A stretch of DNA of 64,000 bases from Crossaster papposus (taxonomy: Eukaryota > Echinodermata > Asteroidea > Velatida > Solasteridae), in assembly GCA_037893245.1 (NCBI GenBank), contig JBAIAA010000109.1:62001-126000 (forward strand), in the 5' to 3' direction. Below the pieces are notes generated by a model. That model worked only from the letters and a program-made list of their open reading frames with translations. It ran no database searches and was not told the origin of the DNA. Both the position numbers and the translations under genes were made by a program. This document shows positions 19,607 to 60,982 of this stretch, piece after piece; the stretch's first letter is position 1; every line of letters begins with the position of its first letter.

Positions 19607-20653
19607 ATGGAAGCAATGGCGAAACTGATGTTTACTGGGTTGCAACTATTTCACATAATATTCATAATATGTCAGGGAGCTACCTCGTCCGTCTCTGGAT
19701 ATGAAACTTCTTATGCAGGGAAACATGCGTTTTATGCCGCAGAAAATCGCGCCCTAAAAGGGTTTGCGTTTGCAACCAAAATTGTACGATCTCGTGTCAT
19801 CTGCGGACGTGAATGCAGCATGGATCAACATTGCAAGTCTTTTAACTTTAATGACTGCAGTAAAATGTGCGAGTTAAACCATGCCATAAGACGGCAGCAT
19901 CTCGACTACTTCAATGCAACTCAAGGGAGCGTGTACTTTGATGCAGATGAGGACACGCCTCTCTACTCACTGGCTGATAGTTCCTTGAATCGCTACAGAA
20001 GTTGCAAGTTGCTCTTAGATGCTGGTTATCGTTCAAGCGGTATCTACACAATCTACCCAGAGGGAATCGGCAATGACAGTCTTCGTGTCTACTGTGACAT
20101 GGAAACTGACGGCGGGGGATGGATCGTGTTTCAGAGGCGACAAGATGGCAGCGTGGACTTCTACCGTAACTGGGCCGACTACCAGTCTGGCTTTGGCGAT
20201 CTGTCCGGTGAGTTCTGGTTGGGTAACGACAACTTGGTGACTCTGACGTCTGATGATTCACGTGGATCATGGGAGCTACAAGTTGACTTAAAGGACTGGG
20301 AGAACAACACGGCATGGGCAAAGTACTCAGATTTCCAAATATCCCCCGGTGAGTACAATCTGAATTATGACGAATACGATGCCAGCAGCACTGCCGGCGA
20401 CTCTCTTGGGAATCACAGAGGGCGTCCCTTTACGACAAAGGATCGTGACAATGATGATACACCAAGACGTAATTGCGCACAAAGGCACACAGGAGCCTGG
20501 TGGTTTAATCGGTGTTTTATATCTCACTTGAATGGTGGATATTACCCAGATGAGAATGCTGGTGATACCAAGGGCGTACAATGGCGTACATGGGAGTCGC
20601 GTTTTTATTCTATGAAAGCATGTAGCATGAAAATGCGTGAAATTGGATGTTGA
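19607..20653 (+). CDS. secreted PAN/apple plus fibrinogen-domain lectin, copy 1
   Basis: Intronless gene of 348 codons. Residues 1-27 are a signal peptide (hydrophobic core LQLFHIIFIICQG). Residues about 40-112 form a PAN/apple-like domain with Cys 66, 70, 76, 84 and 88 (CGREC, KSFNFNDC). Residues about 128-346 are a complete fibrinogen C-terminal domain: RSCKLLLDAG, CDMETDGGGWIVFQRRQDGS, FWLGNDNL, the calcium site DRDND (279-283), then NCAQ and TGAWWFNRC, SHLNGGYY and KMRE. Cys133/163 and 290/303 match the two usual disulfides. Potential N-glycosylation at N103, N156 and N233. Related proteins (ficolins, tachylectins, FIBCD1, invertebrate FREPs) bind acetylated sugars on microbes or self glycans; that role is inferred. 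It ends with an extra Cys (GC). The start is the first ATG after the promoter. No AATAAA is seen close downstream. Confidence 0.93.
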   Translation: MEAMAKLMFTGLQLFHIIFIICQGATSSVSGYETSYAGKHAFYAAENRALKGFAFATKIVRSRVICGRECSMDQHCKSFNFNDCSKMCELNHAIRRQHLDYFNATQGSVYFDADEDTPLYSLADSSLNRYRSCKLLLDAGYRSSGIYTIYPEGIGNDSLRVYCDMETDGGGWIVFQRRQDGSVDFYRNWADYQSGFGDLSGEFWLGNDNLVTLTSDDSRGSWELQVDLKDWENNTAWAKYSDFQISPGEYNLNYDEYDASSTAGDSLGNHRGRPFTTKDRDNDDTPRRNCAQRHTGAWWFNRCFISHLNGGYYPDENAGDTKGVQWRTWESRFYSMKACSMKMREIGC

Positions 20654-23000
20654 ACGGCATATATATATTGTTTTGAATAGGTTTTCCCAGATGATATCAG
20701 AAATGTGCACATTCGTTTGTAAAAGTTTAATTCAATTTCGCGCTGATTTTGATAACGAAGTATATTTACAAGTGCAAAAATGAGCATTTGGTTTCATTTT
20801 GTATTACTCAAAAAAATGGATGTGCATAACGTTTCATTTAAACGATAACAAATCCGTGATTAGGCGTTCGGTTTGACGCATACGTGGCCGATTATTAAGA
20901 ACGTGTAAACTATTTTGCAGCAAATAGATTTGTCGTTGTGTCGCGGCCTGAATTTAATTATCGTTTTCATAAGTTAACATTTAAATTCGTTGGTTGTATT
21001 GCGCATGCAGTGGGAGGTTTCAACCAATGAAGGGTCATGGGTCAGACATGTTGAAGTCCAAATTTAATGTGACACTGAAAAAAAGGTTAAAACCGTCTGG
21101 ATCATGTTTTATCCGCCGTTTAAAAATAGAAAAATAGTCTCCAAATTAGTCGACCAATAGAGAACTCGGGTATTTATGATTTGTATTTTAATGTATTTTC
21201 TCTCTCATTTTAAGGACATACAGTAGGGGGGAAATGTCTGAAAATGGTTGTACTACATGTACAGTATGCATGCAATGCGGTTCGCAGCTGTCACCTCTCT
21301 AATGTTTCAAAAGACTATAGACCACCTGGTACCAATTTCATGGAGCTGCTAAGCACAAAACAATTGCTCAGCATGAAAATTCTTCCTTTGAAAAAATAAA
21401 AAACCCTTTCAGGTGATGTATATAGTTAGTGATTAATTCAGCTGGTTTTTACTTAGCATGAAAAGCACATAAAGTGTTGGCTGGTAACCTGATTTTACTG
21501 AGCAAGATTTGTTTGTGCTAAGCAAATTGTTGTACTTACACAATGTAGCAGCTCCATACAATTGGCCTCTGGTTCAGTTCCCCATATGTTACCTTAGTTA
21601 ACACATAACTGAAATTTGCTGCACATTTAGCAAAATCGATTGTTGATAAAATTAGAAGGAACACTACTGTATATGATTGCGGATGTGCATTCGAATTCGC
21701 GCTAAAATTAATTATCGATACTAAATTCAGTGCACATTCTGGAAATAGTACGCTGATTTTTTTTGCGACTAAATGTACCTTCATGGAAAAAGAATGATCA
21801 ATTGTTAAATAGAAAACGGGACTGGAACGTTCATACTATTTCGCAAGAAAACGAATGCATCTTTTACAAACTAATGTGCACATTTCCCGATATCGTCTGG
21901 GAAAAACTATATTAGGTTTTTCCGGCCAATTTAAACAATTGAATTCAGATTAACACTCGACTCATTTAATTTTGTTTCAAATTGAATTCTCCATTGCATC
22001 AGTATTTAACAGTCAAAAGGAGTAATTCCATTACAGCAGTTAGCAGTCACTGGCCAAATAAGATCATTCCAATTAACGAGGTCATTAACAATTTTTCTAA
22101 TGTTCACATTCAAATTCGTATTTACCTACATGTATGTAAAGGCGAATTCTGAAGAGAATACAGAATTACATTTATTCTGCGTTATACCTTTAAGTAAAGC
22201 ATTTTTTTTACAAAAAGAAGAAATGGGAATGGGGAAAACAATCCACATGAAAAGAACAACCTTTTGTATTAGTTAATTTTATAACGACCCCCTGAAATGT
22301 TAAGCTTTAATTTCTTAAAAGCATTTTTTGTTTTTAATTCGACATGGTCCGAACATTACCAGAAATAAAAAATAAAACATAAAGACCAGTGCAAACGATC
22401 CCAAGACAATAGCGAAATATTTGTTTTTTTCATTTCAAATTTATCACCATAACGTTTTTAACTTTACCTAACACTCTTCTAAATACAGGGTACAGGCTTT
22501 AGCCGGGAAAACCTACAAGTATAGTAGAAATGTAACTGAAGAATGGTGAAACTTAAGTTTTGAATGCCTATACCTGAAATAGAATGACTGAAACGAACCT
22601 GAATGAAAAGAACGAAATCATGTGTGCACAAACACGAAATTGAATGCAATAGTAACTAAAAAAAACACACCCTAGTTTGATTGAATTAGGGGGAAAAGCG
22701 TAAATTTGAATGCGTGTTTAATGAAATTCAATATATTTGTGATAAAATTGGCCGGGAAAACATTATGAATTTCAAATATTTGTTTTAGTTATAATAATAG
22801 TTTTCACTTGTAATTCATTGTACCATCCAGATTACCATCGTACACCTTTAATACGTTACATTGTAGAATAAACATTGTGTCCGACAGTACTGTCAACACT
22901 GTGTTCAGCCATCGCAACTTTGCTAGCCACTTCTATAAAAAAATGTCAGAAGCTAAACATTGCGCATGTACAGTAATTATAAGAATGAATGAAAAATCGC
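20654..23000. other. 3' flank of lectin copy 1
   Basis: Non-coding sequence shared with units 2 and 4. Units 3 and 5 lack roughly 20655-21915. Contains a TAAGCACAA MITE at 21330-21560. No gene recognised. Confidence 0.6.
21330..21560. mobile_element. fold-back MITE, TAAGCACAA family, unit 1
   Basis: Inverted termini CATGGAGCTGCTAAGCAC and GCAGCTCCATACAATTGG, with the same interior phrases as 12247-12500. Present at the same place in units 2 and 4. Confidence 0.8.
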
Positions 23001-23009
23001 GTTTAAAAG

Positions 23010-23520
23010 GAATAACAAGACAGTATTTAGAAAAGTGTTTCAATGTTAAAGACATGTTTAAAATTGGCCAAAAACTGTTTTATGCTACCGGTATTTTAAA
23101 ATATTTTTTTATTCAAATTCACGAACTCTCACGTTCAATTCCGTCTAGAAAAATTACAAGCTTTTTCCGAACCAATTTAGTCATTTATCATTTAATGTCA
23201 AAGTGTGGTCACTCTGTTTAAACATTGGATTGAGAATATTTGTCATTACAGATGAAATTGGTCTAAGCTGTTGCTATAGACGAATCTGGTCTGTAATGAC
23301 GAATTTTTCTCGACCTGGTGTTTAAAGGGGGTGACCAAACGTTTAAATTGAATGATAAATTACTTAATTGGTTTGGTAAAAGCGTGGGAAATTTTTCTTC
23401 GAATGAAATTGAATTTGAGTGGGTAAATTCGAAGATGAAAAAAAAAACAATGTTTTAAAATAGCCAAGAAAACCTATAAAAATATAACCTTTAAAGGAAA
23501 GTTCTTTTTTGGGGGGCTGT
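23010..23520. repeat. long imperfect inverted repeat, unit 1 (central stem 23232-23311)
   Basis: Two arms of roughly 200 bases meet at a 79-80-base hairpin. In this copy the central stem GAGAATATTTGTCATTACAGA pairs with TCTGTAATGACGAATTTTTC, with a few mismatches. Outer arms match in reverse complement, for example AACCAATTTAGTCATTTATC against the region containing GATAAATTACTTAATTGGTT. Conserved in all five units. It could be an old fold-back transposon or a hairpin RNA source. Confidence 0.7.
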
Positions 23521-24597: not shown

Positions 24598-24667
24598 CTG
24601 TAGTTCACACCAGTGTGAAGGATGTTTTATCGATGACTTCATTGTCTTGGCATATTATTGTGTGACA

Positions 24668-26352: not shown

Positions 26353-26737
26353 TTAGGTAGGATACACCATTGGTAATTGCTTGAATTATCATTCATGGGT
26401 AGATTTGGGGGGTTGTATTTCATAGTAAATATCATTTAACTGACCTGTCTGAAGTTTTACAATCATGGATGCCGAGAAAAGCACGAAAAACAGCGTCTGT
26501 TTTCAACCGGCATTGGGCAGTTATTCTTATGTTATCTTTGTTTTTTCGCATTCGCCGTCCGGCGATCGCGAATTTTTCTTCATAATTTTAAATTTTTTTT
26601 TATAATTACCGGATATCTAGCGCAATCATTGTGCTGGATGCCAAGAATCATTATTTACTTTCAAATGAGTAAGATATTTCTTAATAATTCGGTAGTAAAT
26701 ATTTTTGATATTTGCAAATTGTGTATACTACCTTTAA
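26353..26737. mobile_element. MITE, GGTAGTATACACC family, unit 1
   Basis: Inverted termini GGTAGGATACACCATTGG and GTGTATACTACCTTTAA with TTAA at the border. Interior carries ATGGATGCCGAGAAAAGCA. The family has four further members at 49656, 51775, 52159 and 60592. Confidence 0.85.
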
Positions 26738-27147
26738 GTTAATTGAAGAATGCTTGCAGTTAACAAGGCCGGCGATTCTGCCCAAAATATGGTGAATGGT
26801 ACCCCCTAAAGTTGGTTATTCTCTTGAGACTCGTGGGGAAAGGAGCCCAAAACTCCTGAGAAAAGAAATAATAGTTTTTTACCAGAAATTTCTCCAATTC
26901 TACTAGATGGAAAGTTCTCCTACCCCGAGCCAAATCTCTCCAGGATTGTATAAGCCTCGTTTATAGTCGGTCGCGCGACTCAAACATTAACGCAAAATCA
27001 TCCGATACAGGCGGTTTATAGTTGCAAGTCAGGTTCTCGAATTTTATTTTCCTTGACAAAAACAATCATCCAAACCACAAATTAGCAAAAAGAAAATGTT
27101 GCAAATGACCAACAAACCTTTTTAAGAAAAAAAAAAAAAAAACTTAA

Positions 27148-29103: not shown

Positions 29104-30239
29104 GCCACCAATAGAATGTTATCAGAAAATGGTACATGTATGTAAGAAATGCTGTGGAGGAGGTTTGTCTAGGTTTTCGCCGTCAAAAATGCTGCTTATT
29201 CAGTAGGAGTAATTTACAGGCCTACAACTCACTCCTATAAATTAAAAAAAGGAGCCGGATTCATAAAAGTACATTTTGTGTGTGTATTATTACCTTAAAC
29301 CGAAGGAAAACCTCAAATTTCATTTTTTCAGTTTTTGGGGAAAATAACCATTTTTGATGCAGTACTGCCTAAAGAGGATACAATCCCCAAAACTTTTCAC
29401 ACCAGAAAAAAAAAGAACCAATGTTTGCTCCAAGCCAATCCAAAAGGAAAACATTCTGAGACCCCTGGCAAGTTGACCTTTTGAGGGACAAAAATAGGGA
29501 AAACATTACATGTTTACAAGTTCTAAAGACAAGCTTTAACACATGTTCTGAAAATAGCATAAGGGTGACATTTAAAACATTTTTTTCTCAAGTAAGGGCA
29601 GTGATGATTCTTTGTAATGATATAGTTGATAAATTTGCATTTTGGGTGGGTGATTTTTTAAAATTATAAGCAAAACACAACAAAACGTGTTGGCATTGCA
29701 ACAGGCCATAAACAAAATGTACATGTACAATGTAAGTTCTATTTTCGTTACTTGCTTACCAAGTCCTTTCATATTAAAAAAACACCATAATTGTCGAGGA
29801 CACTTCTTTGAAATATTTACGTAGAGCCACTCTTAAGTATTTTTTTTTTTTTTTTTTGTGATGGCGATGATGTAAGTTGTCCATTGTGATCATCAATACA
29901 AAGGAGTCTAGATGTTGTTTTGTATAACGCAACTCATAATATTTGCGACTTCATTAAATTTCAGCTTGTGGCCTTCGGTAGAAGGAGTTACCATAGTAAC
30001 CAGAGAATTGCCTATTAATGTCACTGGATTCATTAAAACTAGATCAATATCGTGGATAGCTATAATATTACTGTAAAGACTCCTCTTAATAGACGACTTT
30101 ATCTCTGACTTTCTCATGCAAGTTCTGAGAATGGAATCAACCAGCGTAAAATTGATATGAACGCATATGCAATCTCCCGATTGTCCGTGTCTTCAGCGCT
30201 TAATGTTTATTCAGAATCTCACAGACCGATGAGGTTATC

Positions 30240-30652: not shown

Positions 30653-31696
30653 ATGGAAGCAATGGCGAAACTGACCTTTACGGGGTTGCAACTATTTCAC
30701 ATAATATTTATCATATGTCAGGGAGCTACCTTGTCTGTCACTGGATATGAAACTTCTTATGCAGGGAAACATGCGTTTTATGCCGCAGAAAATAGCGCCC
30801 TAAAAGGGTTTGCGTTTGCAACCAAAATTGTACGATCTCGTGTCATCTGCGGACGTGAATGCAGCATGGATCGACATTGCAAGTCTTTTAACTTTAATGA
30901 TTGCAGTAAAATGTGCGAGTTAAACCTTGCCATAAGACGGCAGCATCTCGACTACTTCAATGCAACTCAAGGGAGCGTGTACTTTGATGCAGATGAGGAC
31001 ACACCTCGCTACTCACTGGCTGATAGTTCCTTGAATCGCTACAAGAGTTGCAAGATGCTCTTAGATGCTGGTTATTGTTCAAGCGGTATCTACACAATCT
31101 ACCCAGAGGGATTCGGCAATGACAGTCTTTGTGTCTACTGTGACATGGAAACTGACGGCGGGGGATGGATCGTGTTTCAGAGGCGACAAGATGGCAGCGT
31201 GGACTTCTACCGTAACTGGGCCGACTACCAGTCTGGCTTTGGCGATCTGTCCGGTGAGTTCTGGTTGGGTAACGACAACTTGGTGACTCTGACGTCTGAT
31301 GATTCACGTGGATCATGGGAGCTACGAGTTGACTTAAAGGACTGGGAGAACAACACGGCATGGGCAAAGTACTCAGATTTCCAAATATCCCCGGGTGAGT
31401 ACAGTCTGAATTATGACCGATACGATGCCAGCAGCACTGCCGGTGACTCTCTTTTGTATCAAAAAAGGCATCGCTTTTCGACAAAGGATCGTGACAATGA
31501 TTATGCACCAGAACTTAATTGCGCACAAAAGTACACAGGAGCTTGGTGGTTTAATGGGTGTTTTGAGTCTCACTTGAATGGTGGATATTACCCAGATGAG
31601 AATGCCGGTAATGCCAAGGGCGTACAGTGGAAATCATGGAAAATGCAATATTCTATGAAAGCATGTAGCATGAAAATGCGTGAAATTGGACGTTGA
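30653..31696 (+). CDS. secreted PAN/apple plus fibrinogen-domain lectin, copy 2
   Basis: 347 codons, same architecture as copy 1: signal peptide, PAN-like domain with five Cys, fibrinogen domain with DRDND calcium site, NCAQ and GAWWFNGC. Two Arg-to-Cys changes (residues 142 and 160, GYCSS and LCVYC) add two cysteines near the start of the fibrinogen domain. The ligand-side loop differs: LLYQKRHRFS before the calcium site, YAPELNCAQKYTG after it, and MQYSMK with one residue fewer near the end. Intact frame, so probably functional. The gene ends IGR. Confidence 0.92.
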   Translation: MEAMAKLTFTGLQLFHIIFIICQGATLSVTGYETSYAGKHAFYAAENSALKGFAFATKIVRSRVICGRECSMDRHCKSFNFNDCSKMCELNLAIRRQHLDYFNATQGSVYFDADEDTPRYSLADSSLNRYKSCKMLLDAGYCSSGIYTIYPEGFGNDSLCVYCDMETDGGGWIVFQRRQDGSVDFYRNWADYQSGFGDLSGEFWLGNDNLVTLTSDDSRGSWELRVDLKDWENNTAWAKYSDFQISPGEYSLNYDRYDASSTAGDSLLYQKRHRFSTKDRDNDYAPELNCAQKYTGAWWFNGCFESHLNGGYYPDENAGNAKGVQWKSWKMQYSMKACSMKMREIGR

Positions 31697-32615: not shown

Positions 32616-33934
32616 CCTCTGGTTCAGTTCCCCATATGTTACCTTAGTTAACACATAAATGATTTCCAATGCTTGACAGACATACATTTTTTTTAAATGC
32701 GCAGGAAATTTGCTGCACATTTAGCACAATCGATTGTTGATAACATTAGAAGGAACACTACTGTATATGATTGCGGATGTGTATTCGAATTCGCGCTAAA
32801 ATGAATTATCGATACTATATTCAGTGCACATTCTGGAAATATAGTACCCGGAATTGAATTCTCCATTGCAGTATTCAACAGTCAAAAGGGGTAATTCCAT
32901 TTCAGCAGTTAGCAGTCACTGGCCAAATAAGATCATTCCAATTAATGAGGTCGTTAACAATTTTTCTAATGTTCACATTTAAATTCGTATTTTCCTATAT
33001 AAAGGCGAATTCTGAAGAGAATACAGAATTACACTTATTCTGCGTTATACATGTACCTTTTAGTAAAGCATTTTTTTTACAAAAAGAAGAAACGCGATTA
33101 GAAATGGGAATGGGGAAAACAATCCACATGAAAAGAACAACCTTTTGTATTAGTTAATTTTATAACGACCCCCTGAAATGTTAAGCTTTAATTTCTTAAA
33201 AGCATTTTTTGTTTTTAATTCGACATGGTCCGAACATTACCAGAAATAAAAAATAAAACATAAAGACCAGTGCAAACGATCCCAAGACAATAGCGAAATA
33301 TTTGTTTTTTTCATTTCAAATTTATCACCATAACTTGTTTAACTTTACCTACTGTAACACTCTTCTAAATACAGGGTACAGGCTTTAGCCGGGAAAACCT
33401 ATAGTAGAAATGTAACTGAAGAATGGTGAAACTGAAGTTTTGAATGCCTATACATGAAATAGAATGACTAAAACGAACATGAATGAACAGAACGAAATCA
33501 TGTGTGCACAAACACGAAATTGAATGCAATAGTACATGTACATGTAGCTAAAAAGAAACCCTAGTTTAATTGAATTAGGGGGAAAAGTGTGAATTTAAAT
33601 GCGTGTTTAATGAAATTCAATATATATTTGTAATGAAATTGGCCGGGAAAACATTATGAATTTCAAATATTTGTTTTAGTTAAATGTATAATAATAGTTG
33701 GCACTTGTAATTCATTGTACAATCAAGATTACCATCTTACACCTTTAATACGTTACATTGTAGAATAAACATTGTGTCCGACAGTACCGTTAACACTGTG
33801 TTCAGCCATTGCAACTTGCTAGCTACTTCTATAAACATTTTTCAGAAGCTAAACATTGCGCGTTTAATTATAAGAACGAATGATAAATCGCTAGATATTT
33901 TTGATCAATACCATGTTCGTGTTTGAACGCATTT

Positions 33935-34440: not shown

Positions 34441-35146
34441 GGCTGTTAACAACTATTGCCAGATTATTGTCAAAATGCGTACGATACTAAATAAACATGT
34501 ACCGGTACGCGTTCGCTTCCGCGCATTTATTGTCGCGAAATATTGATATGATTCGTGCCTATACCCAGCATTGACAGTACTTGATCGACACATTGCGGTT
34601 ACATTATGTGCTGCGTAGTTGTTATTGTATAATTATATTTATAAAATTGTGTTTAATGATATTTTACCATTTTGTAGATAAGCTAGATCAGTTCATTTTT
34701 TTGGCAGTTGTGCCTCATATGAATCTGTTTGATAATAATTATAATTACTAAAAGATATTAGAGCCATTTTTTTAGGCCTGTGCTTAAGTTGATTGAGTGT
34801 TTTTGAGCCAAATATTATTGTTACACACACGTTAATGTAACTCTAGGGTTTCAGCTAACTGTATTTTGCACTGTAGCTCACACCAGTGTGAAGGATGTTT
34901 TATTAATGACTTCATTGTATTGGCATATTATTGTGCGACATTTAAATCTTTGTAAGATTGTGTCAATTTGACGATTTTTGAATTAATTGCAATTGTACTT
35001 TTGTCTACAGTGTGGTTAGACTTAATTATTTGTTACTGTGCAAACTGTGTGCAGACTAGATGGATTTTAAGTCAGTGATTTAGGCCTGATACTGTATTTT
35101 AACAAGTCATATTTTGTGTGTACATTGCCAGACGTGTATCCCAGCC

Positions 35147-35254
35147 ATGTCTGTGCCAGACTATTTCTAAGTCACATACATGTAGTGCTTCAGCTGAGAC
35201 CATAGTTTGTGCATTCAAATATATTTTACGTGAATATGATGAAGATGCCTGCCC
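35147..35254 (+). pseudogene. MSVPDF ORF remnant, unit 2
   Basis: Starts like the other copies, but loss of bases in GACTTTATTTC breaks the frame after MSVPDYF. A TACATGTA insertion lies at 35177-35184, and after DEDACP the sequence jumps by deletion into the unit tail. Non-functional. Confidence 0.6.
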
Positions 35255-35605
35255 GAAATATGGTGAATGGCACCCCGGAAAAGTTTGTTATTCTCTAGAG
35301 ACTTGTTGGGAAAGGAGCCCAAAACTCGTTAAGAAAGAAAATATTTGGTTATTTTTTTTACTAGAATTTTCTACAATTCTACTAGATGGAAAGTTCTCAC
35401 TCCTCCTACATGTACAGTACATGTACCTCCGAGCCAAATCTTTTCAGTATCGTAAAGCCTGGTTTATTATAGTCGGTCGCGCGACTGAACAATTGACGCA
35501 CAATCATCCGATACAGGCGGTTTATTTTGCAAGTCAGGTTCTCGGATTCTATTGCAAATGACTAACAAACCTTTTTAAGAAAAAAACTTAAAAACAAAAA
35601 ATCAA

Positions 35606-36485: not shown

Positions 36486-37639
36486 CCACCAATAGAATGT
36501 TATCAGAAAATGGTATGTAAGAAATGCTGTGGAGGAGGTTTGTTTAGATTTTCGCCATCAAAAATGCTGGCTATTCAGTAGGAGTAATTCACAGGCCTAC
36601 ATGTACAACTCACTCTTATAAATTAAAAAAGGAGCCAGATTCATAAAAGTACATTTTGTGTGTGTATTATTCCTTGGTATTATTACCTTAAACCGAAGGA
36701 AAACCTCAAATTTTCTTTTTTCAGTTGTTTGGGAAAATAACCATTTTTGATGCAGTACTGCCTAAAGAGGATACAATCCCCCAAACTTTTCTCACCAGAG
36801 ATAAAAAGACCAATGTTGGCTCCAAGCCAATCCAAAAGGAAAACATTCTGAGACCCCTGGCAAGTTGACTTTTTGAGGGACAAAAATAGGAACAAATTTC
36901 AATTTTACAAGTTCTAAAGACAAGCTTTAACGCATGTTCTGAAAATAGCATAAGGGTGACATTTAAAACATTTTATTTTTTTCTCAAGTAAGGGCAATGA
37001 TGATTCTTTGTAATGATATACATGTAGTTGATAAATTTGCATTTTGGCTGGGTGATTTTTTCAAATTATAAGCAAAAGACAAAATGGCCTGTTGGCATTG
37101 CAACAGACCATAAACAAAATGCAAGTTCTATTTTCGTTACTTGCTTACCAAGTTATTTCATATTAAAAAAAACACCATAATTGACGAGGACACTTCTTTG
37201 AAATATTTACGTAGACACACTCTTAAGTATTGTTTTTGTTTTTTTGTTGTGATGGCGATGATGTATGCAAGTTGTCCATTGTGATCATCAATACAAAGGA
37301 GTCTAGATGTTGTTTTGTAACGCAACTCATAATATTTGCGACTTCATTAAATTTCAGCTTGTGGCCTTCGGTAGAAGGAGTTACCATAGTAACCAGAGAA
37401 TTGCCTCTTATTGTCACTAGATTCATTAAAACTAGATCAATATCGTGGATAGCTATAATAATACTGTAAAGACTCCTCTTAATAGACAAATTTATCTCCG
37501 ACTTTCTCATGCAAGTTTTGAGAATGGAATCAACCAGCGTAAAATTGATATGAACGCATATGCAATCTCCCGACTGTCCGTATCTTCAGCGCTTAACGTT
37601 TATTCAGAATCTCACAGACCGATGAGGTTATCAGCTTAC

Positions 37640-38051: not shown

Positions 38052-39098
38052 ATGGAAGCAATGGCGAAACTGACTTTTACTGGGTTTCAACTATTTCACA
38101 TAGTATTCATCATATGTCAGGGAGCTACCTCGTCCGTCTCTGGATATGAAACTTCTTACGCAGGGAAACATGTGTTTTATGCCGCAGAAAATCGCGCCCT
38201 AAAAGGGTTTGCGTTTGCAACCAAAATTGTACGATCTCGTGTCATCTGCGGACGTGAATGCAGCATGGATCAACATTGCAAGTCTTTTAACTTTAATGAC
38301 TGCAGTAAAATGTGCGAGTTAAACCTTGCCACAAGACGGCAGCATCTTGACTACTTCAATGCAACTCAAGGGAGCGTGTACTTTGATGCAGATGAGGACA
38401 CACCTCTCTACTCACTGGCTGATAGTTCCTTGAATCGCTACAAAAGTTGCAAGATGCTCTTAGATGCTGGTTATTGTTCAAGCGGTATCTACACAATCTA
38501 CCCAGAGGAATTCGGCAATGTCAGTCTTCGTGTCTACTGTGACATGGAAACTGACGGCGGGGGATGGATCGTGTTTCAGAGGCGACAAGATGGCAGCGTG
38601 GACTTCTACCGTAACTGGGCTGATTACCAGTCTGGCTTTGGCAATCTGTCCGATGAGTTCTGGTTAGGTAACGACAACTTGGTGACTCTGACGTCTGATG
38701 ATTCACGTGGATCATGGGAGCTACGAGTTGACTTAGAGGACTGGGACGGTAACGCGGCATGGGCAAAGTACTCAGATTTCCAAATATCCCCGGGTGAGTA
38801 CACTCTGAATTATGACCAATACGATGCCAGCAGCACTGCCAGTAACTCTCTTGGGTATCACAGAGGGCATCGCTTTACGACAAAGGATCGTGACAATGAT
38901 GATGCATTGAAATTTAATTGCGCACAAATAAACAAAGGAGCCTGGTGGTTTAATCTGTGTTTAGCGTCTCACTTGAATGGTGGATATTACCCAGATGAGA
39001 ATGCCGGTGATGCCAAGGGCGTACAATGGCGTTCATGGAAATCGCGTTCTTATTCTATGAAAGCATGTGGCATGAAAATGCGTGAAATTGTATCTTGA
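38052..39098 (+). CDS. secreted PAN/apple plus fibrinogen-domain lectin, copy 3
   Basis: 348 codons, same domains. Specific features: Cys at 142 (GYCSS), PEEFGNVSLR, DWDGNAAW, SNSLGYHRGHRFT before the calcium site DRDND, then ALKFNCAQINKGAWWFNLCL. The last third from codon 183 to 320 is identical at DNA level to copy 4 (38600-39011). The C-terminus KSRSYSMKACGMKMREIVS instead resembles copy 5, as does the 3' flank. Intact frame. Confidence 0.92.
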   Translation: MEAMAKLTFTGFQLFHIVFIICQGATSSVSGYETSYAGKHVFYAAENRALKGFAFATKIVRSRVICGRECSMDQHCKSFNFNDCSKMCELNLATRRQHLDYFNATQGSVYFDADEDTPLYSLADSSLNRYKSCKMLLDAGYCSSGIYTIYPEEFGNVSLRVYCDMETDGGGWIVFQRRQDGSVDFYRNWADYQSGFGNLSDEFWLGNDNLVTLTSDDSRGSWELRVDLEDWDGNAAWAKYSDFQISPGEYTLNYDQYDASSTASNSLGYHRGHRFTTKDRDNDDALKFNCAQINKGAWWFNLCLASHLNGGYYPDENAGDAKGVQWRSWKSRSYSMKACGMKMREIVS

Positions 39099-46385: not shown

Positions 46386-47429
46386 ATGGAAGCAATGGCG
46401 AAACTGACCTTTACTGGGTTGCAACTATTTCACATAATATTCATCGTATGTCAGGGAGCTACCTCGTCCGTCTCTGGACATGAAACTTCTTATGCAGGAA
46501 AACATGTGTTTTATGCCGCAGAAAATCGCGCCCTAAAAGGGTTTGCGTTTGCAACCAAAATTGTACGATCTCGTGTCATCTGCGGACGTGAATGCAGCAT
46601 GGATCAACATTGCAAGTCTTTTAACTTTAATGACTGCAGTAAAATGTGCGAGTTAAACCTTGCCATAAGACGGCAGCATCTCGACTACTTCAATGCAACT
46701 CAAGGGAGCGTGTACTTTGATGCAGATGAGGACACACCTCGCTACTCACTGGCTGATAGTTCTTTGAATCGCTACAGAAGTTGCAAGATGCTCTTAGATG
46801 CTGGTTATCGTTCAAGCGGTATCTACACAATCTACCCAGAGGGAATCGGCAATGACAGTCTTTGTGTCTACTGTGACATGGAAACTGACGGCGGGGGATG
46901 GATCGTGTTTCAGAGGCGACAAGATGGCAGCGAGGACTTCTACCGTAACTGGGCTGATTACCAGTCTGGCTTTGGCAATCTGTCCGATGAGTTCTGGTTA
47001 GGTAACGACAACTTGGTGACTCTGACGTCTGATGATTCACGTGGATCATGGGAGCTACGAGTTGACTTAGAGGACTGGGACGGTAACGCGGCATGGGCAA
47101 AGTACTCAGATTTCCAAATATCCCCGGGTGAGTACACTCTGAATTATGACCAATACGATGCCAGCAGCACTGCCAGTAACTCTCTTGGGTATCACAGAGG
47201 GCATCGCTTTACGACAAAGGATCGTGACAATGATGATGCATTGAAATTTAATTGCGCACAAATAAACAAAGGAGCCTGGTGGTTTAATCTGTGTTTAGCG
47301 TCTCACTTGAATGGTGGATATTACCCAGATGAGAATGCCGGTGATTCCAAGGGCGTACAGTGGGAATCATGGAAAATGCCATATTCTATGAAAGCATGTA
47401 GCATGAAAATGCGTGAAATTGGACGTTGA
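46386..47429 (+). CDS. secreted PAN/apple plus fibrinogen-domain lectin, copy 4
   Basis: 347 codons. N-terminal half close to copies 1 and 5. Has Cys at 160 (LCVYC) but Arg at 142. From codon 183 the DNA is identical to copy 3 for 412 bases (46934-47345), including ALKFNCAQINKGAWWFNLCL. The last 25 codons (MPYSMKACSMKMREIGR) and the 3' flank match copy 2. It therefore looks like a mosaic made by gene conversion. Frame intact. Confidence 0.92.
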   Translation: MEAMAKLTFTGLQLFHIIFIVCQGATSSVSGHETSYAGKHVFYAAENRALKGFAFATKIVRSRVICGRECSMDQHCKSFNFNDCSKMCELNLAIRRQHLDYFNATQGSVYFDADEDTPRYSLADSSLNRYRSCKMLLDAGYRSSGIYTIYPEGIGNDSLCVYCDMETDGGGWIVFQRRQDGSEDFYRNWADYQSGFGNLSDEFWLGNDNLVTLTSDDSRGSWELRVDLEDWDGNAAWAKYSDFQISPGEYTLNYDQYDASSTASNSLGYHRGHRFTTKDRDNDDALKFNCAQINKGAWWFNLCLASHLNGGYYPDENAGDSKGVQWESWKMPYSMKACSMKMREIGR

Positions 47430-49655: not shown

Positions 49656-50164
49656 TTAAAGGTAAAAGTAGAATACACCATTGGTAATTGCTTGAAATAC
49701 ATGTACTGTACATGTATCATGAATAGGTGGATTTGGGGGGTTGTATTTTTATAGTAAATGCCGTTTTAACTGACCTGTTAGAAGTTTTACAATCATGGAT
49801 GCCGAGAAAAGCATGAAAAACAGCGTTTGTTTTCAACCGGCGTCGAGCAGTCATTCTTATGTTATCTTTGTGGTGTTTCAACCGGCGTCGAGCAGTCATT
49901 CTTATGTTATCTTTGTGGTGTTTCAACCGGCGTCGAGCAGTCATTCTTATGTTATTTTTGTGGTGTTTTTTATCGCCGTACGGCGATCGCGAATTTTTCT
50001 TTATAAAATTCAATTTTCCGGAATAATTACAGGATATCTACATGTTGCGCAATAATTTTGCTGGATGCCTAAAAAAATATTTTATTTTCAAATGAGTAAG
50101 ATATTTCTTAATAATTCGGTAGTAAATATTTTCGATATCTGCAAATGGTTTATACTACCTTTAA
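49656..50164. mobile_element. MITE, GGTAGTATACACC family, with 45-bp triplication
   Basis: Inserted at TTTAA between CACC and TACG. Contains three perfect-to-near-perfect 45-base tandem units (49831-49965) starting TTTCAACCGGCGTCGAGCAG. The unit keeps frame, so an open frame of 86 codons (MDAEKSMKNSVCF...) runs through it. I regard that frame as non-coding. Confidence 0.8.
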
Positions 50165-51774: not shown

Positions 51775-52162
51775 TTAAAGGTAGTATACACCATTGGTAA
51801 TTTGTTGAATTATCAGGAATGGGTGGATTTGGGGGGTTGTATTTTATAGTAAATATCGTTTAACTGACCTGTCCGAATTTTTACATTCATGGATGCCGAG
51901 AAAAGCATGAAAAACAGCGTTTGTTTTCCACCGGAGTCGAGCAGTTATTCTTATGTTATCTTTGTTTTTTCGCGCTCGCCGGACGGCGAGAATGAATTTT
52001 GGTTTATACAATTCAATTTTTTTGGAACAATTACAGGATATCTAGGGCCCTTATTTTGCTGGATGCCTACAATCATTATTTACTTTTAAATAAGTAAGAT
52101 ATTTCTTAATAATTCGGTAGTAAATTTTTTCGATATCTGCAAATGGTGTATACTACCTTTAA
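51775..52162. mobile_element. MITE, GGTAGTATACACC family, tandem copy a
   Basis: Inserted at the TTAA in GTGCTTAAG. Ends AAAGGTAGTATACACCATTG and GGTGTATACTACCTTTAAA. Directly joined to a second member. Confidence 0.85.
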
Positions 52163-52540
52163 AGGTAGGATACACCATTGGTAATTGCTTGAATTATCAT
52201 GAATAGGTAGATTTGGGGGGTTGTATTTTATATCGTTTAACTGACCTGTCCGAAGTTTTACAATCATGGATGCCGAGAAAAACACGAAAAAAAGTTTTTT
52301 TCAACCGGCGTCGAGCAGTTATTCTTATGTTATCTTTGTTTTTTCGCTATCGCCGGCCGGCGATCACAAATTTTTCTTTATAAAATTCTAATTTTCGGAA
52401 TAATTACACAATATCTAGCGCAATCATTTTGCTGAATGCCTAGAATCAATATTTACTTTCAAATGAGTAAGATATTTCTTAATAATTCGGTAGTGAATAT
52501 TTTCGATATCTGCAAATATATGGTGTATACTACCTTTAAG
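52159..52540. mobile_element. MITE, GGTAGTATACACC family, tandem copy b
   Basis: Shares the TTTAAA at its left border with copy a. Unit 5 has one member at the same site (60592), so b or a was added later by insertion into the duplicated TTAA. Confidence 0.85.
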
Positions 52541-52900
52541 TGCTTGAGTGTTTTTGAGCCAAATATTATTGTTACGGACACGTTAATGTAACTCTAGGTT
52601 TTCAGCTAACTGTATTTTGCACTGTAGTTCAGTCACACCAGTGTGAAGGATGTTTTATTAATGACTTTATTGTCTTGGCATATTATTGTGTGACATTTAA
52701 ATCTTTGTAAGATTGTGTCAATTTGAGGATTTTTGAATTAATTGCAATTGTACTTTTTTCTACAGTGTGGTTAGACTTGATTATGTTTTTACTGCGCAAA
52801 CTGTGTGCAGACTAGATGGATTTTAAGTCAGTGATTTAGGTCTGATACTGTATTTTAACAAGTCATATTTTGTGTACATTGCCAGATATGTATCCCAGCC

Positions 52901-53155
52901 ATGTCTGTGCCAGACTTTATTTCTAAGTCACATAGTGCTTTAGCTGAGACCATAGTTTGTGCATTCACATATATTTTACGTGAATATGATGAAGATGCAT
53001 GTCATGTTGGTAGAGGTGTGGTAAATAGCATTGAAGCTGCATTGAATAATAGATTCATTGCATTTTTTAATTCTTTGAAAAGCCTAGTAAAGATACTGAA
53101 TTACAGTCACCTGGCCTTATTACGTGTTGTCATACAGTTGAAGTGGTACCGGTAG
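52901..53155 (+). CDS. MSVPDF ORF, unit 4; unknown function
   Basis: 84 codons: MSVPDFISKSHSALAETIV, REYDEDACHVGRGVV, then LKSLVKILNYSHLALLRVV. A TACCGGTA insertion (53147-53154) alters the frame at its end. Confidence 0.35.
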   Translation: MSVPDFISKSHSALAETIVCAFTYILREYDEDACHVGRGVVNSIEAALNNRFIAFFNSLKSLVKILNYSHLALLRVVIQLKWYR

Positions 53156-53999: not shown

Positions 54000-54766
54000 T
54001 TAAAGTTAAATTTCAGGCTCAATAATATTTTACCTAGTCTAAAAGAATATATGGTAACATACAGACTCCGCAGAGAATTTGTTTTGATTTGTTATTGAGA
54101 ACGACACACGCGCTTATTACATGTACATGTATATTAACGATTTCTTGCCATTCAGGAGTACAAGGGCGCGGCCATATTGTTTAAATTTCCCGCCACGGCC
54201 GGGAAATTATGACGTACATGTACATGTAGTGTCTGCACCTCAATGCACATCGCTTTATTGCCTGTTGTTCGCACTGGTATCCAACCTTGACGCGGCCAAC
54301 TACCGGTACAATAAGTGTGTATGTTGTACGGAGCCCGACGTTTGCGAGTACATGTATTGCATTTCTGTTTTTGTATTTTCTGAGAAGAATAGAAAATCTG
54401 TGAGCTAGTAATGATGGCATCAGGTCCTTCTCCGTATGATTTTGAGCCCACTTTCACTTGTACAGTACACATTGTGTATACACTATGCCATACACAAAAG
54501 GGTTCACTTGCATTCCTTGCGCGAGCAGGGCGGCTATCGATCGGGCTTCGTATACTGATGGTGCAGACACTATGTCACAATATCTCGGATGTACCGATAA
54601 ACCAGAACAAAATGGCGGCTCGCATGACGGTAAGCGCAGTGCGATAAAATCTCTGTTTTATATGATTACCGAAACCGATAAAAATGAAATAAAAATCAAG
54701 TCACAATGGCAATTGACACTCTTTAACATTATGCAATTATAAACTATGGGTGGAGTTTCCCTTTAA
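54000..54766. mobile_element. DNA element bounded by TTAA, unit 4
   Basis: Orthologous to 43006-43914 without the nested palindrome. Contains an extra TACCGGTA (54301-54308) where unit 3 has TA. Confidence 0.7.
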
Positions 54767-55235: not shown

Positions 55236-56759
55236 AGGTCTCGTCTAGTTGCATTATATAAAAACCATCTTATGACAACAGTTTACAAAGGTCGTTTTCC
55301 AAAACCACAGCTATAGGCTCCGACACCATCGCCATTGCCAAAATTGCAAAATCTTGTTAAAATACTTGAAACCTTCTTACAGCTGTTTAGACTTTTCAGA
55401 CGAAATGATGACTAACATGCCATCTTTCATTTTTTCCCCAATTTTTGGTGGGTTGACCCGTGTGTTTTGGAGAATTCTCACCCAAAATAGACCACCGGCA
55501 CCGGGTACTTCAGCTAGTGTTTAAGCGCAATATTGGTAATAGCGTCAACATTAAGTTTGGTACAAAATATTATCAGGCATAATGAATGTTTAAGAAAGTG
55601 ATATGAAACAGTGATCATTCAAAAAGGCATTTAAGAGTGGGTCCACGTAAATATTTCATACCGTATAAGTGTCGTCGGCATTTTGAGGGGTTTTAATATG
55701 AAAGGACTTGTGAGCAATGCTTTAGTTGGGTTCTGTATAAATAATGTTTTAGTTCACAACGAATATTGTTTCCTCCTTTTATATGCCACTAATGGAATGT
55801 TATAAGAAAATGGTATGTAAGAAATGCTGTGGAGGGGGTTAGTCTAGATTTTCGCAGTCAAAAATGCTGCTTATTCAGTAGGAGTAATTCACAGGCCTAC
55901 AACTCACTCTTATAATTTGAAAAAAGAGCCGGATTTATAAAAGTACAATTATTTTGTGTGTGCACTATTACATGTACCAAATAAACCGAAGGAAAACCTC
56001 AAATTTAATTTTTCATTTTTTGGGGGTAAATAACCATTTTTGATGCAGTACTGCCTAAAGAGGATGAAATCCCCCCTAACTTTTCTCACCAGATATGAAA
56101 AGACCAATGTTGACTCTAATCAAATCCAAAAGAAAAATTTTCTGAGACCCCTGGCAAGTTGACTTTTTGACTTTTTGAGGGACAAAATAGGGAACAAATT
56201 TCAATTTTACAAGTTCTAAAAACAAGCTTTAACGCATGTTCTGAAAATAGCAGAAGGGTGACAATTTTTTGACATTTAAAACATTTTATTTTTTTTCTAA
56301 AGGGCAATGGTGATTCTTTTTAATGATATAGTTGATAAATTTGAATTTGGCTGGGTGATTTTTTTTCTAATTATAAGCAAAACACAAAATGGCGATGATG
56401 TAAGTTTTCCATTGTCATCATCAATACAAAGGAGTCTAGAGTTGGTTTTGTATCGCAACTCATAATATTTGCGACTTTATTAAATTTCAGCTCCCGGCCT
56501 TCGGTAGAAGAAGTTACCATAGTAACCAGAGAATTGCCTCTTAGTGTCACTAGATTCATTAAAACTAGATCAATATCGTGGATAGCTATAATATTACTGT
56601 AAAGACTCCTCTTAATAGACGACTTTATCTCTGACTTTCTCATGCAAGTTTTGAGAATGGAATCAACTAGCATGAAATTAATATGAACGCATATGCAATC
56701 TCCCGATTGTCCGTGCCTTTAGCGCACAGACCGATGAGGTTATCAGCTTACAATAAAAC

Positions 56760-57163: not shown

Positions 57164-58210
57164 ATGAAAGCAATGGCGAAACTGCCCTTTACTGGGTTGC
57201 AACTATTTCACATAATATTCATCATATGTCAGGGAGCTACCTCGTCCGTCTCTGGATATGAAACTTCTTATGCAGGGAAACATGTGTTTTATGCCGCAGA
57301 AAATCGTGCCCTAAAAGGGTTTGCGTTTGCAACCAAAATTGTACGATCTCGTGTCATCTGCGGACGTGAATGCAGCATGGATCAACATTGCAAGTCTTTT
57401 AACTTTAATGACTGCAGTAAAATGTGCGAGTTAAACCTTGCCATAAGACGGCAGCATCTCGACTACTTCAATGCAACTCAAGGGAGCGTGTACTTCGAAG
57501 CAGATGAGGACACACCTCGCTACTCACTGGCTGATACCGGTAGTTCCTTGAATCGCTACAGAAGTTGCAAGATGCTCTTAGATGCTCGTTATCGTTCAAG
57601 CGGTATCTACACAATCTACCCAGAGGGATTCGGCAATGACGGTCTTCGTGTCTACTGTGACATGGAAACTGACGACGGGGGATGGATCGTGTTTCAGAGG
57701 CGACAAGATGGCAGCGAGGACTTCTACCGTAACTGGGCCGACTACGAGTCTGGCTTTGGCGATCTGTCCGGTGAGTTCTGGTTGGGAAATGACAACTTGG
57801 TGACTCTGATGTCTGATGATTCACGTGGCTCATGGGAGCTACGAGTTGACTTAGAGGACTGGGACGGTAACACGGCATGGGCAAAGTACTCAGATTTCCA
57901 AATATCCCCCGGTGAGTACAGTCTGAATTATGACCAATACGATGCCAGCAGCACTGCCGGTGACTCTCTTGGGTATCACAGAGGGCGTCCCTTTACGACA
58001 AAGGATCGTGACAATGATGATGAACCACAACGTAATTGCGCACAAATGCAAACAGGAGCCTGGTGGTTTAATCGGTGTTTTGAGTCTCACTTGAATGGTA
58101 GATATTACCCAGATGAGAATGCCGGTTATCCCAAGGGCGTACAATGGCATTCATGGAAATCACGTTTTTATTCTATGAAAGCATGTAGCATGAAAATGCG
58201 TGAAATTTGA
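57164..58210 (+). CDS. secreted PAN/apple plus fibrinogen-domain lectin, copy 5
   Basis: 348 codons starting MKAMAKLPFTG. Same domains. A 6-base insertion (TACCGGTA at 57535-57542 in place of TA) adds Thr-Gly in the linker between PAN and fibrinogen domains (ADTGSSLNRY). Arg at both 142- and 160-equivalent sites, so no extra Cys there. Ligand loop: GYHRGRPFT, DRDNDDEPQRNCAQMQTG, WWFNRCFES, NGRYYPDENAGYPK. A G-to-T change creates TGA two codons early, so it ends MREI. AATAAA is present at 58267-58272, about 55 bases after the stop. Confidence 0.92.
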   Translation: MKAMAKLPFTGLQLFHIIFIICQGATSSVSGYETSYAGKHVFYAAENRALKGFAFATKIVRSRVICGRECSMDQHCKSFNFNDCSKMCELNLAIRRQHLDYFNATQGSVYFEADEDTPRYSLADTGSSLNRYRSCKMLLDARYRSSGIYTIYPEGFGNDGLRVYCDMETDDGGWIVFQRRQDGSEDFYRNWADYESGFGDLSGEFWLGNDNLVTLMSDDSRGSWELRVDLEDWDGNTAWAKYSDFQISPGEYSLNYDQYDASSTAGDSLGYHRGRPFTTKDRDNDDEPQRNCAQMQTGAWWFNRCFESHLNGRYYPDENAGYPKGVQWHSWKSRFYSMKACSMKMREI

Positions 58211-58266
58211 TGTTGAACGCCGTATCCTATTGTATATTATGTTGGTTTCCAGGCCAAATTCATTCA

Positions 58267-58272
58267 AATAAA
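58267..58272 (+). terminator. AATAAA poly(A) signal of copy 5
   Basis: AATAAA about 55 bases downstream of the stop codon. Unit 3, with a related 3' flank, reads AATTAA at this place. Confidence 0.45.
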
Positions 58273-58509
58273 CACCAGGCTTATTTAATTTTGTTTCAAA
58301 ATGACAGCTTTCTTTTGTTGCATCAGCATTCAACAGTCAAAAGAAGTAATTATATTTCAGCAGTTAGCATTCACTGGCCAAATAAGATCATTCAAATTCA
58401 CGAGGTCGTCAACCATTCAATTGGCAAACATTTTTTAATGTTCACATTCAAAGTCGTATAATTTACCTATATAAAGGCAAATTCTGAATTAAGAGAATAC
58501 AGAATTACA

Positions 58510-58851
58510 CAGGGTTCTAGCCACGGTGGGCGGCGCCGGGCGATACCTCCCGGTACTGCAAATCTCCGCCAGGCTCTTGGGTTCAAATTGGCTGTGCCGC
58601 CCGGCACAATTTTGTTTTTGTTTTAAATTAAATTATGGGCACAAAAGAAAGAGAGGAGATACATGTACAAAGTCACGTTAATCATGTTCGTGTAGTAATT
58701 TATTTTATTAACTTAGCTAGACTTTCACAGAAACATGCAAAAATGAACTGGACCCCCGGCCGTGAGGCGCGAGAGCTCCGCTTGCTGCGCTCACAACGCT
58801 TCGCAATCTGATAATTTACCCGGCACTAAAAAAGTCCTAGCTAGAACCCTG
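58510..58851. mobile_element. hAT-type non-autonomous element, unit 5 only
   Basis: TIRs CAGGGTTCTAGC and GCTAGAACCCTG with a perfect 8-base target duplication GAATTACA (58502-58509 and 58852-58859). The other units read GAATTACACTTATTC uninterrupted. GC-rich ends, no transposase. Confidence 0.93.
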
Positions 58852-59754
58852 GAATTACACTAATTCTGCGTTATACCTTTAAGTAAAGCATTTTTGAACG
58901 AGAAGAAATACGATTAAAAAAGGAACTGTGGAAACAATATACAAGAAAAGAACAACCTTTTGTTTTAGTTTATTTTATAATGACCCCCTGGTAATTTAAA
59001 GCTTTTTAAAAGCTTCTTTTAAAAGTTTCTTAAAAGCATTTGCTATTTTTTAATTTGACATGGTCCAAACATTAGCAGAAATAAAGAATAAAACATAAAG
59101 ACCAGTGCAAACAATCACAAGACAATAGCAACAGATTTTGTTTTCCTTTCAAACTTACCACCATAACCTTTTAAACTTTACCAAACACTCTTCTAAATAC
59201 AGGGTACAGGCTTTAGCCGGGAAAACCTACTGTATAGTAGAAATTCAACTGAAGAATGGTGAAACTGTAGTCTCGAATGCCTACTACATTAAATAGAATG
59301 ACTAAAACGAACCTGAATGAAAATAATGAAATCATGTGTGCACAAACACGAAATTGAATGCAATAGTAACTAAAAAGAAACCCTAGTTTGATTGAATTAG
59401 GAATTTGAATGCGTGTTAAGGAAATTGAATTAATTTGTGATGGATTTGGACAAGAAACCTATATTTATTTTGAATGTTTGTTTTAGTTATATTAATAGTT
59501 GGCACTTGTAATTCATTGTACAATCAAGATTACCACCTTACACCTTTAATACGTTGCATTGTAGAATAAACATTGTGTCCGACAGTACCGTCAACGCTGT
59601 GTTCATCAAACGCAACTTGCTAGCTACTTCTATAAACATTTGTTCAGAAGCTAAACATTGCGAGTGTAATTATAAGAATGAATGATAAATCGCTAGATAT
59701 TTTCGATCAATACCTTGTTAGTGTTTGAACGCGTTTAAAAGGAATAACAAGACA

Positions 59755-60240
59755 GTATTTAGAAACGTGTTTCAATGTTAATGACATGTTTAAAATTGGC
59801 ATAAAATTGTTTTATGCTATTTTAAAATATTTTGTTATTCAAATTCACGAACTCTCACGTTCAATTCCGTCCAGAAAAATTACAAGCTTTTTCCGAACCA
59901 ATTTCGTCATTTATCATTCAATGTCAAAGTGTGGTCACTCTGTTTAAACATTGGATTGAGAATATTCGTCATTACAGATAAAATTGATCTAAGCTGTTGC
60001 TATAGACGAATCTGGTCTGTAATGACGAATATCCTCGACCTGGTGTTTAAAAGGGGTGACCAAGCGTTTAAATCAAATGATAAATTACTTAATTTGTTTG
60101 GTAAAACCGTGGGAAATTTTACTTTGAACGAAATTGAATATGAGAGTGGGTAAATTCGAAGAAGAAAAAAAAACATGTTTCAAAATAGCCAGGAAAACCT
60201 ATAAAAATATAACCTTCAAAGGAAAGTTTTCTGGCTGTTA
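59755..60240. repeat. long inverted repeat, unit 5 (central stem 59958-60036)
   Basis: Central arms GAGAATATTCGTCATTACAG (plus A) and TCTGTAATGACGAATATCCT (plus C), one mismatch. Outer arms extend as in unit 2. Confidence 0.72.
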
Positions 60241-60591
60241 ACAACTACGGTATTGTCAAATTATTTTCAAAATGGGTACGATACTAAATAAACATGTACG
60301 CGATCAATTCCGCGCATTTATTGTCGCCAAATATTGACATGATCTGGCCTATACCCAGCATTGAGAGGACTTCATCGACACATTGCGGTTACATTATGTG
60401 CTGCGTAGTTTTCATTGTATAATTATAGAGTTGTGTTTTTTTGATATTTTACCATTTTGTACATGTAAGCTACATGTACCGGTAGATCAGTTCAGTTTTT
60501 TGGCAGTTGTGCCTCATATGAATCTGTTTGATAATAATAATTATTACTACATGTAAAAACAATTAGAGCCATTTTTTTAGGTCTGTGCTTA

Positions 60592-60982
60592 AAGGTACAT
60601 GTAGGATACACCATTGGTAATTGCTCGAATTATGATGAATAGGTAGAGATTTAAGGGGTTGTATTTTATAGTAAATATCGTTTAACTGACCTGTCCGAAG
60701 TTTTACAATCATGGATGCCGAGAAAAACACGAAAAACAGCGTTTGTTTTCAACCGGCGTTGGGCAGTTATTCTTATGTTATCTTTGTTTTTTCGCTATCG
60801 CCGGCCGGCGATCACGAATTTTTCTTTATAAAATTCTACTTTTCGGAATAATTACACAATATCTAGCGCAATCATTTTGCTGAATGCCTAGAATCATTAT
60901 TTACTTTCAAATGAGTAAGATATTTCTTAATAATTCGGTAGTGAATATTTTTGATATCTGCAAATGGTGTATCCTACCTTTC
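60592..60982. mobile_element. MITE, GGTAGTATACACC family, unit 5
   Basis: Same insertion site as 51775 in unit 4. Its left TIR is itself interrupted by TACATGTA (60596-60603) where the family has TA. Confidence 0.85.

Follow-up and report, generated by a model that had tools for sequence, protein, structure and literature searches.

What leaves short palindromic insertions at TA dinucleotides, one after another, between closely similar gene copies? The question is raised by a 64,000-bp stretch of the sea star Crossaster papposus genome, hereafter the window, which comprises bases 62001-126000 of contig JBAIAA010000109.1 (C109) in an assembly of 1.023 Gb and 1,841 contigs. The window contains an array of five gene units at 7.4-11 kb spacing, with much of the coding part 94-98% alike, and a plain TA in one unit corresponds in another to the octamer TACATGTA or TACCGGTA. 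A first-pass annotation quoted twelve such pairs and read the octamers, here called scars, as footprints of a TA-targeting transposon. Our analysis indicates that the phenomenon is real and non-random, and that Tc1-type excision footprints, present at an unusual density, are its best interpretation. The mechanism itself is already known, and it is the scale that is unusual.

Insertions at TA carry a small set of cores

Insertions were taken from gapped unit alignments with well-matched flanks, which gave 590 observations, 383 unique segments, and 265 merged loci. Among the 5-6-bp insertions, TA is duplicated at 27 of 43 distinct loci (p ~1e-19 given the 7.8% frequency of TA), and the excess over other sites that the first-pass annotation anticipated is therefore found. 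The next dinucleotides, AC and GT, account for six loci each. For 2-4-bp insertions, TA and AT are equal (11/68 loci each).

The 19 six-bp TA loci contain the cores CATG (10), CCGG (5), CAAG, CTTG, AATG, and one AT-rich repeat. The core is palindromic in 15 of the 19 (p = 3e-15 against 1 in 16). The eight five-bp TA loci contain CTG (4), CAG, CCG, CGG, and TCC (one each); TCC is a misfit, and the other seven have the form TACNGTA. The insertions thus lie exactly at a duplicated TA, and their cores are palindromic or form the complementary pairs CTG/CAG and CCG/CGG. Longer TA insertions include CCCGG, CACAATG, and CAAAATG. The 6-bp class is dominant, with 17/24 of the C..G loci, or 15/22 if only CATG and CCGG are counted among the 6-bp loci. 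In both classes the 6-bp loci outnumber the 5-bp loci to a similar degree, 10:5 for CA and 5:2 for CC, as one process acting on two kinds of ends would give. Most of the short words would be explained by ends of two kinds, CA(G) and CC(G), that leave 2+2 or mismatched 3-nucleotide (nt) remnants.

When the units are compared in pairs, 66 scar differences and 2,898 substitutions are found over 45,960 aligned bases, approximately one scar per 44 substitutions, for pairs that are non-independent and a scar pattern that is loose. Footprints here would therefore form a major class of small insertions.

Plain TA probably precedes the scar

All twelve quoted pairs contain the octamer at the quoted position and a plain TA at the partner. 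Eleven partner coordinates are exact; the twelfth needs a one-base correction, from 22184 to 22185. The flanks, described as otherwise the same, are alike on both sides in seven pairs (ungapped 30-base flanks, at least 25 matches each); in the other five one side is weaker, and the gapped view reveals another indel close by in most of these. In the pair 60596 versus 52166 the scar is confirmed, while the quoted partner is the internal junction of a tandem miniature inverted-repeat transposable element (MITE), and 51782 is the better partner.

The array contains 90 merged scar words, 73 of them with an alignable partner and 27 (at 26 sites) with at least one plain-TA partner. Among these 27, 22 are private to one unit, 19 have at least two plain partners, and 13 have at least three. 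The description of the scars as usually private is thus correct for this group and does not extend to the remaining 46 of the 73 alignable words, which lack a plain-TA partner; 35 of these recur unchanged in one or more other copies and are therefore older, and 11 differ otherwise. Within this one species, the plain TA appears ancestral at the 19 words with at least two plain partners and at a scar outside the array (17413), where five of five segmental copies are plain. The scars, to which no strand is assigned, include the following.

57535..57542, TACCGGTA in the coding sequence of unit 5; plain TA in 4/4 other units
22127..22134, TACATGTA; shared with unit 4 (48940), plain at 32996
23086..23093, TACCGGTA; plain in 4/4 other units
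29133..29140, TACATGTA; plain in 2/2
33048..33055, TACATGTA; plain in 3/3
33350..33356, TACTGTA, a 5-bp footprint of Sleeping Beauty type; plain TA in 2/3
33533..33546, compound TACATGTACATGTA; plain TA in 3/3
34500..34507, TACCGGTA; plain in 4/4 units, common to paralog L107 on contig C279 (249/250 bases)
35177..35184, TACATGTA; plain in 3/4 units, decayed scar TACATGTT at 61381 in the fourth
36598..36605, TACATGTA; plain in 3/3
37019..37026, TACATGTA; plain in 3/3
49698..49716, compound TACATGTACTGTACATGTA in a TTAA-flanked MITE; plain TA in 4/4 other MITE copies
53147..53154, TACCGGTA; plain in 2/2
54301..54308, TACCGGTA; plain in 1/1
55659..55665, TACCGTA; plain in 3/3
59228..59234, TACTGTA; one TA with two insertions, TACAAGTA in unit 1, and 3 others plain
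60246..60252, TACGGTA; plain in 3/3
60548..60555, TACATGTA; plain in 4/4
60596..60603, TACATGTA; plain at 51782, located in a terminal repeat of a TTAA-flanked MITE
17413..17420, TACCGGTA, outside the array; plain TA in 5/5 segmental copies (L081-L085)

The site at 35177 is also plain in paralog L106 on contig C279. Particularly, the scar at 57535 lies inside a gene and adds two residues, so that the protein reads ADTGSSL in place of ADSSL. Among the matches listed for a plain-flank query, this site has the plain length in 33 of 34 gene copies, and unit 5 alone has the extra 6 bp; the 34 omit units 1 and 3, which are both plain by unit alignment. The genes of the array are five intronless open reading frames (ORFs) of 347-348 codons found in an ORF scan of the window, and the two that were translated both encode a PAN_1 followed by a Fibrinogen_C domain.

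19607..20653, + strand, unit 1 gene, intronless ORF of 348 aa, PAN_1 and Fibrinogen_C; plain TA at 19978
30653..31696, + strand, unit 2 gene, ORF of 347 aa; plain TA at 31024
38052..39098, + strand, unit 3 gene, ORF of 348 aa; plain TA at 38423
46386..47429, + strand, unit 4 gene, ORF of 347 aa; plain TA at 46757
57164..58210, + strand, unit 5 gene, ORF of 348 aa with the in-frame TACCGGTA scar inside

Genome-wide, the PAN and fibrinogen-C gene has at least 34 close copies on 13 contigs among the matches listed.

The region before 18.6 kb is also duplicated. Six of seven queried pieces have 93-99% identical copies on C109, C999, C203, C279, and other contigs, and the copies of the seventh (16708) are only 80-85% identical. 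Seven scars outside the array were compared with 4-8 copies each. Every copy read carries those at 7662, 10648, 14734, and 15942, with no more than point changes, and these four are therefore older. At 11736 and 16708 a TACATG tract varies in length among the copies; the window has one unit at 11736 and five of five copies read have two. Within the array, 54215 and 43198 likewise differ by one TACATG unit. Near 15936, in the comparison with L086 and L088, paralogs differ as TATA and TACAGTA at one site, as two repair products of one excision might give.

Scars are also found in TTAA-flanked MITEs (49698 and 60596), and the compared MITE copies are plain. This MITE of ~385 bp is piggyBac-like by its TTAA duplication only, and occupies 26355-26739, 49659-50164, 51778-52541 (a tandem dimer), and 60592-60985. 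Its copy number is very high, and a genome-wide search gave 5,281 first-look candidates; the search returns the best-scoring copies only and is biased against scars, and no rate was taken from it.

Four compound scar words have a plain partner (21254, 26152, 33533, and 49698). By a rough estimate, second-or-later events number 5 against 0.49 expected under random TA hits (p = 1.5e-4). The compound scars fit either the re-use of scars as targets or compound repair. The 19-mer TACATGTACAGTACATGTA and its reverse complement are present at two loci, 35407-35425 and 49698-49716, as perfect palindromes around one central base.

The octamers are abundant in the window and the genome

Against a second-order Markov expectation, TACATGTA is found 58 times in the window (2.8 expected) and TACCGGTA 18 times (0.66 expected). 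They are the two most over-represented TA-NNNN-TA words of the window, and they also rank as the top two among palindromic octamers under a dinucleotide model. Genome-wide, TACATGTA is present 318,073 times (reversed word, 145,386) and TACCGGTA 41,190 times (reversed, 14,746), so that the window is approximately three-fold richer in the former and seven-fold richer in the latter than the genome mean. In a 180-kb sample outside the window, which takes in repeat-rich stretches and one bacterial stretch, TACATGTA reaches 39 against 3.7 expected, and TACAGTA 16 against 13.0. The octamers cannot all be counted as separate fossils of cut-and-paste, as had been proposed, since some belong to tandem (TACATG)n and many were inherited via duplication.

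Contig C1 is dense in TACCGGTA at ~1.4-1.6 Mb, where 100-kb intervals hold 19 and 16 copies; over the stretch listed, the mean per 100 kb is near 4. Over the first 100 listed sites per word, with sites within 60 bp merged, the variance/mean ratio on C1 is 5.65 for TACCGGTA (1.0 for random sites) and 1.99 for TACATGTA (random 1.10, with a random maximum of 3.07, hence not clear). This clustering is compatible with local hopping and also with segmental copying, and we do not claim local hopping from it.

TA-flanked elements with CA..TG ends exist in the genome

A PF01498 profile search of the assembly gave 150 scored Tc1-like matches of 302 candidates, on contigs not sorted by host. Every Tc1-like element that was read at both ends has TA on its flanks. 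L040 and L041 have the ends CACTACTC, of CA..TG type, with arms 99% and 95% identical, respectively; these are the TA-flanked Tc1-like elements of the assembly with CACT ends. L042 and L043 have AACAC ends, and L045 has one CACTGAAC end and a diverged GACTGAAC end. Elements flanked by TA with CA..TG ends are thus present in the genome, in L040 and L041 and, as far as left ends go, in the L032 family. Empty copies of L041 and L043 exist because the insertion sites fall in a repeat. For L043, six of six empty copies reveal an exact TA duplication. For L041, whose target is TATATA, 12 of 14 empty copies fit a TA duplication and two differ in TA repeat number.

The L032 family has nine end matches; the one end read is CACTGGCG and begins with CA. 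Of its six TA-flanked left ends, four are in ACATGTA, a context that 0.9% of TAs overall share (p = 9e-8), and the figure is four of nine when all ends are counted; the six leave out L034 and L037 (no TA, flank recurring inside L038) and L105 (diverged end, no TA). This location within TACATGTA at 4/6 ends suggests that scars may be reused as targets. L032 itself is a Tc1-like element with tandem repeats in its interior; its right end was not found, and the downstream stretch (L038 1786-1942) includes an inverted palindrome.

Other searches for source elements were less productive. In ~284 kb (sample plus window), 482 TA-flanked inverted-repeat matches include ten that begin with CA and one, not inspected, that begins with CC; the 60 viewed consist largely of internal segments of known elements and of other palindromes, and were set aside as sources. 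A boundary search for repeats starting after TA returned the TTAA MITEs and an CAGTGCAAAA candidate that is closely matched at one place only, and was likewise rejected. The PF13358 search was swamped by bacterial contig matches. The PF01359 search gave zero matches, as did its control, and hence is no evidence of absence. The PF03184 (pogo) search gave 40 matches, with ends not read. Two unit-specific insertions, at 58509-58852 and 43235-43400, have end repeats of GAATTACA (8-bp, hAT-like by length) and CTTTAT (6-bp, unclassified), respectively.

Excision footprints and the alternatives

The private insertions are probably excision footprints of TA-inserting cut-and-paste transposons of Tc1/mariner type, with CA..TG and CC..GG ends. 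Insertion of such an element would duplicate TA, as shown for L043 and consistent with L041. By analogy with Tc1 and Sleeping Beauty, the transposase would cut two or three bases inside each end, and template-free joining would leave one or two copies of the end bases between the TAs. Ends starting with CA would give TACATGTA (2+2 bases) or TAC(A/T)GTA (3-base overhangs with a central mismatch), and ends starting with CC, judging from the pairing of the classes, would give TACCGGTA or TAC(C/G)GTA. Each hop would leave one scar and no extra copy, so that scars could far outnumber elements. Scars would in turn be TA targets hit again above random TAs, producing compound scars and probably (TACATG)n tracts; the statistics support the repeated hits, and the mechanism is what we infer.

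The footprint interpretation of the first-pass annotation is supported in part, by the polarity, the strict TA site, the palindromic cores, the TACNGTA class, and the TA-flanked CA..TG elements. For the CA class, none of the patterns named in advance as contrary to it was found, namely equal insertion at non-TA sites, slippage with no excess of single insertions, or a genome lacking TA-flanked elements with matching termini. It goes beyond the data in two respects, as no transposon-bearing allele was seen at any scar site and no CC..GG-ended element was found.

Several observations weigh against excision by such elements. No element-bearing allele is present at any scar among the array insertions or the paralog matches listed, and no CC..GG-ended element was identified in the ~284 kb of sample and window. 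In 33 printed rows of large inter-unit insertions the clear duplications are TTAA, 5-bp, or 6-8-bp, with no clear TA duplication and several boundaries unclear. No footprint is found in the 20 empty copies of L041 and L043, and none of the five sites of L040-L043 and L045 lies in TACATGTA (L044, without visible outer ends, is outside this count). The 3+2 and 3+3 footprints expected from CAG ends, TACAGTGTA and TACAGCTGTA, number zero each. The 28 scarred TAs, read from plain alleles, favour A or C before TA, with T just before TA at 0.14 against a background of 0.34, and differ in these flanks from the A/T-rich targets of Tc1 and Sleeping Beauty. In the 180-kb outside sample, TACTGTA is not enriched (13 against 13.9) and TACCGGTA reaches only 2 against 1.1. 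Finally, the genome-wide count of TACATGTA exceeds that of its reversed control by only 2.2-fold, a small gap that arises partly because the control word falls inside (TACATG)n. Many scars and zero filled sites in what was read are compatible with cut-and-paste, in which copy number stays constant from hop to hop, yet they do not prove the source.

The same lack of any filled allele, among the array insertions and paralog matches listed, would suit a TA-cutting nuclease or domesticated transposase followed by template-free end addition, with no resident element. This is improbable, as the CATG and CCGG cores and the CTG/CAG and CCG/CGG pairs need a template such as inverted element ends, and random end addition would not repeat the same cores. 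A shade less probable is that the scars are ancestral and the plain TAs precise deletions, or that gene conversion moves old scars between units. Some scars are common to other copies (22127 with 48940, 35177 with the decayed 61381, and 34500 with L107), but 13 of the 27 scar words face at least three plain copies, 17413 is plain in 5/5, and the coding site keeps the plain length in 33/34 of the copies among the matches listed; moreover, conversion is able to spread a scar, not to create one.

Slippage during replication, or growth of a (TACATG)n microsatellite, is slightly less probable again. Such tracts are common (7,246 forward matches of an 18-mer genome-wide), and a change of whole units beside an existing unit is seen at a few sites, with tract length varying at 11736, 16708, and 54215 versus 43198. 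For single scars slippage is contradicted, because the 27 words with a lone-TA partner had no pre-existing unit to copy, and cores such as CCGG, CTG, and CGG do not duplicate an adjacent unit; overall the insertions do not have this form. It is very improbable that the octamers are selected binding sites of Iroquois/homeodomain type, as argued for Phytophthora promoters. In that study, TACATGTA lies upstream of 12,070 Phytophthora genes, a transposon footprint is not expected, and an Irx preference is cited (PMC3520976). Selection would explain retention, not a 6-bp insertion at TA, TACCGGTA, TACNGTA, or a scar in coding sequence. An assembly or sequencing artefact is next to negligible: the data are a single assembly whose reads were not viewed, but the 34500 scar is identical on another contig (249/250 bases), and one grammar operates at one dinucleotide.

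Excision footprints, the preferred explanation, also admit a bolder extension, which is possible but on balance doubtful. The elements would prefer their own scars as targets, so that cycles of hopping make new targets, nested palindromic arrays, and nascent (TACATG)n, a hop-by-hop odometer, and the commonest scars, of 6 bp, would always be frame-preserving and stop-free within coding sequence. None of the 640 contexts tested for each core gains a stop codon from a 6-bp insertion of the CATG or CCGG kind at TA. If the footprint interpretation is true, the octamers allow past excisions to be counted, element classes to be sorted by their end bases, and local hopping to be tested, and they raise the question of how frequently gene families gain codons in this way. 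Where TACATGTA abounds elsewhere, footprints become an alternative to binding sites, and polarity in recent duplicates could be examined in Phytophthora as well.

A probable bacterial contig in the assembly

Contig C8 (L014, L028, and L029) has a length of 5.3 Mb and a GC content of 0.48 in L014, and appears to be bacterial; an uncultured Endozoicomonas has an aconitase 85% identical to the one encoded on C8. The contig holds 148 of 150 scored matches to a DDE_3 (IS630-like) transposase, and the other two are on C1027 (L030 and L031). The two C8 copies that were compared agree at 99.2% over a length of 1,451 bp. C8 is probably an associated bacterium with a massive load of insertion sequences, assembled together with the animal.

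Comparison with known systems

The footprint literature, as far as sampled, mainly concerns engineered transposons, and no description of genome-scale footprints of this kind was found in titles or abstract openings of the open-licence literature. Within the Tc1/mariner group, Sleeping Beauty leaves 3-nt overhangs (PMC7827188), and its consensus footprints are TACAGTA/TACTGTA, with 5 bp added (PMC4378557). ZB, another Tc1/mariner element, leaves zero to three base pairs behind (PMC7913693).

The TA-flanked elements of this genome resemble the presumed source in their CA..TG ends (L040 and L041) or CA start (L032 family, one end read). They differ in that CAC ends would not yield TACAGTA/TACTGTA and their own footprints were not seen; the L032 family has only nine end matches.

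Compared with Tc1 of Caenorhabditis elegans, the array has the same TA-CA-TG-TA product, and TACATGTA is cited as a rare Tc1 excision footprint (PMC3520976, citing Eide and Anderson 1988), whereas here the word is found 318,073 times genome-wide, not all of these being scars, and 58 times in 64 kb. In addition, the array adds a second class, TACCGGTA, and has only candidate source elements. With Sleeping Beauty, the array shares identical words at five of its eight five-bp TA loci, and it differs from that system in being dominated by the 6-bp class and in possessing a CCG/CGG version.

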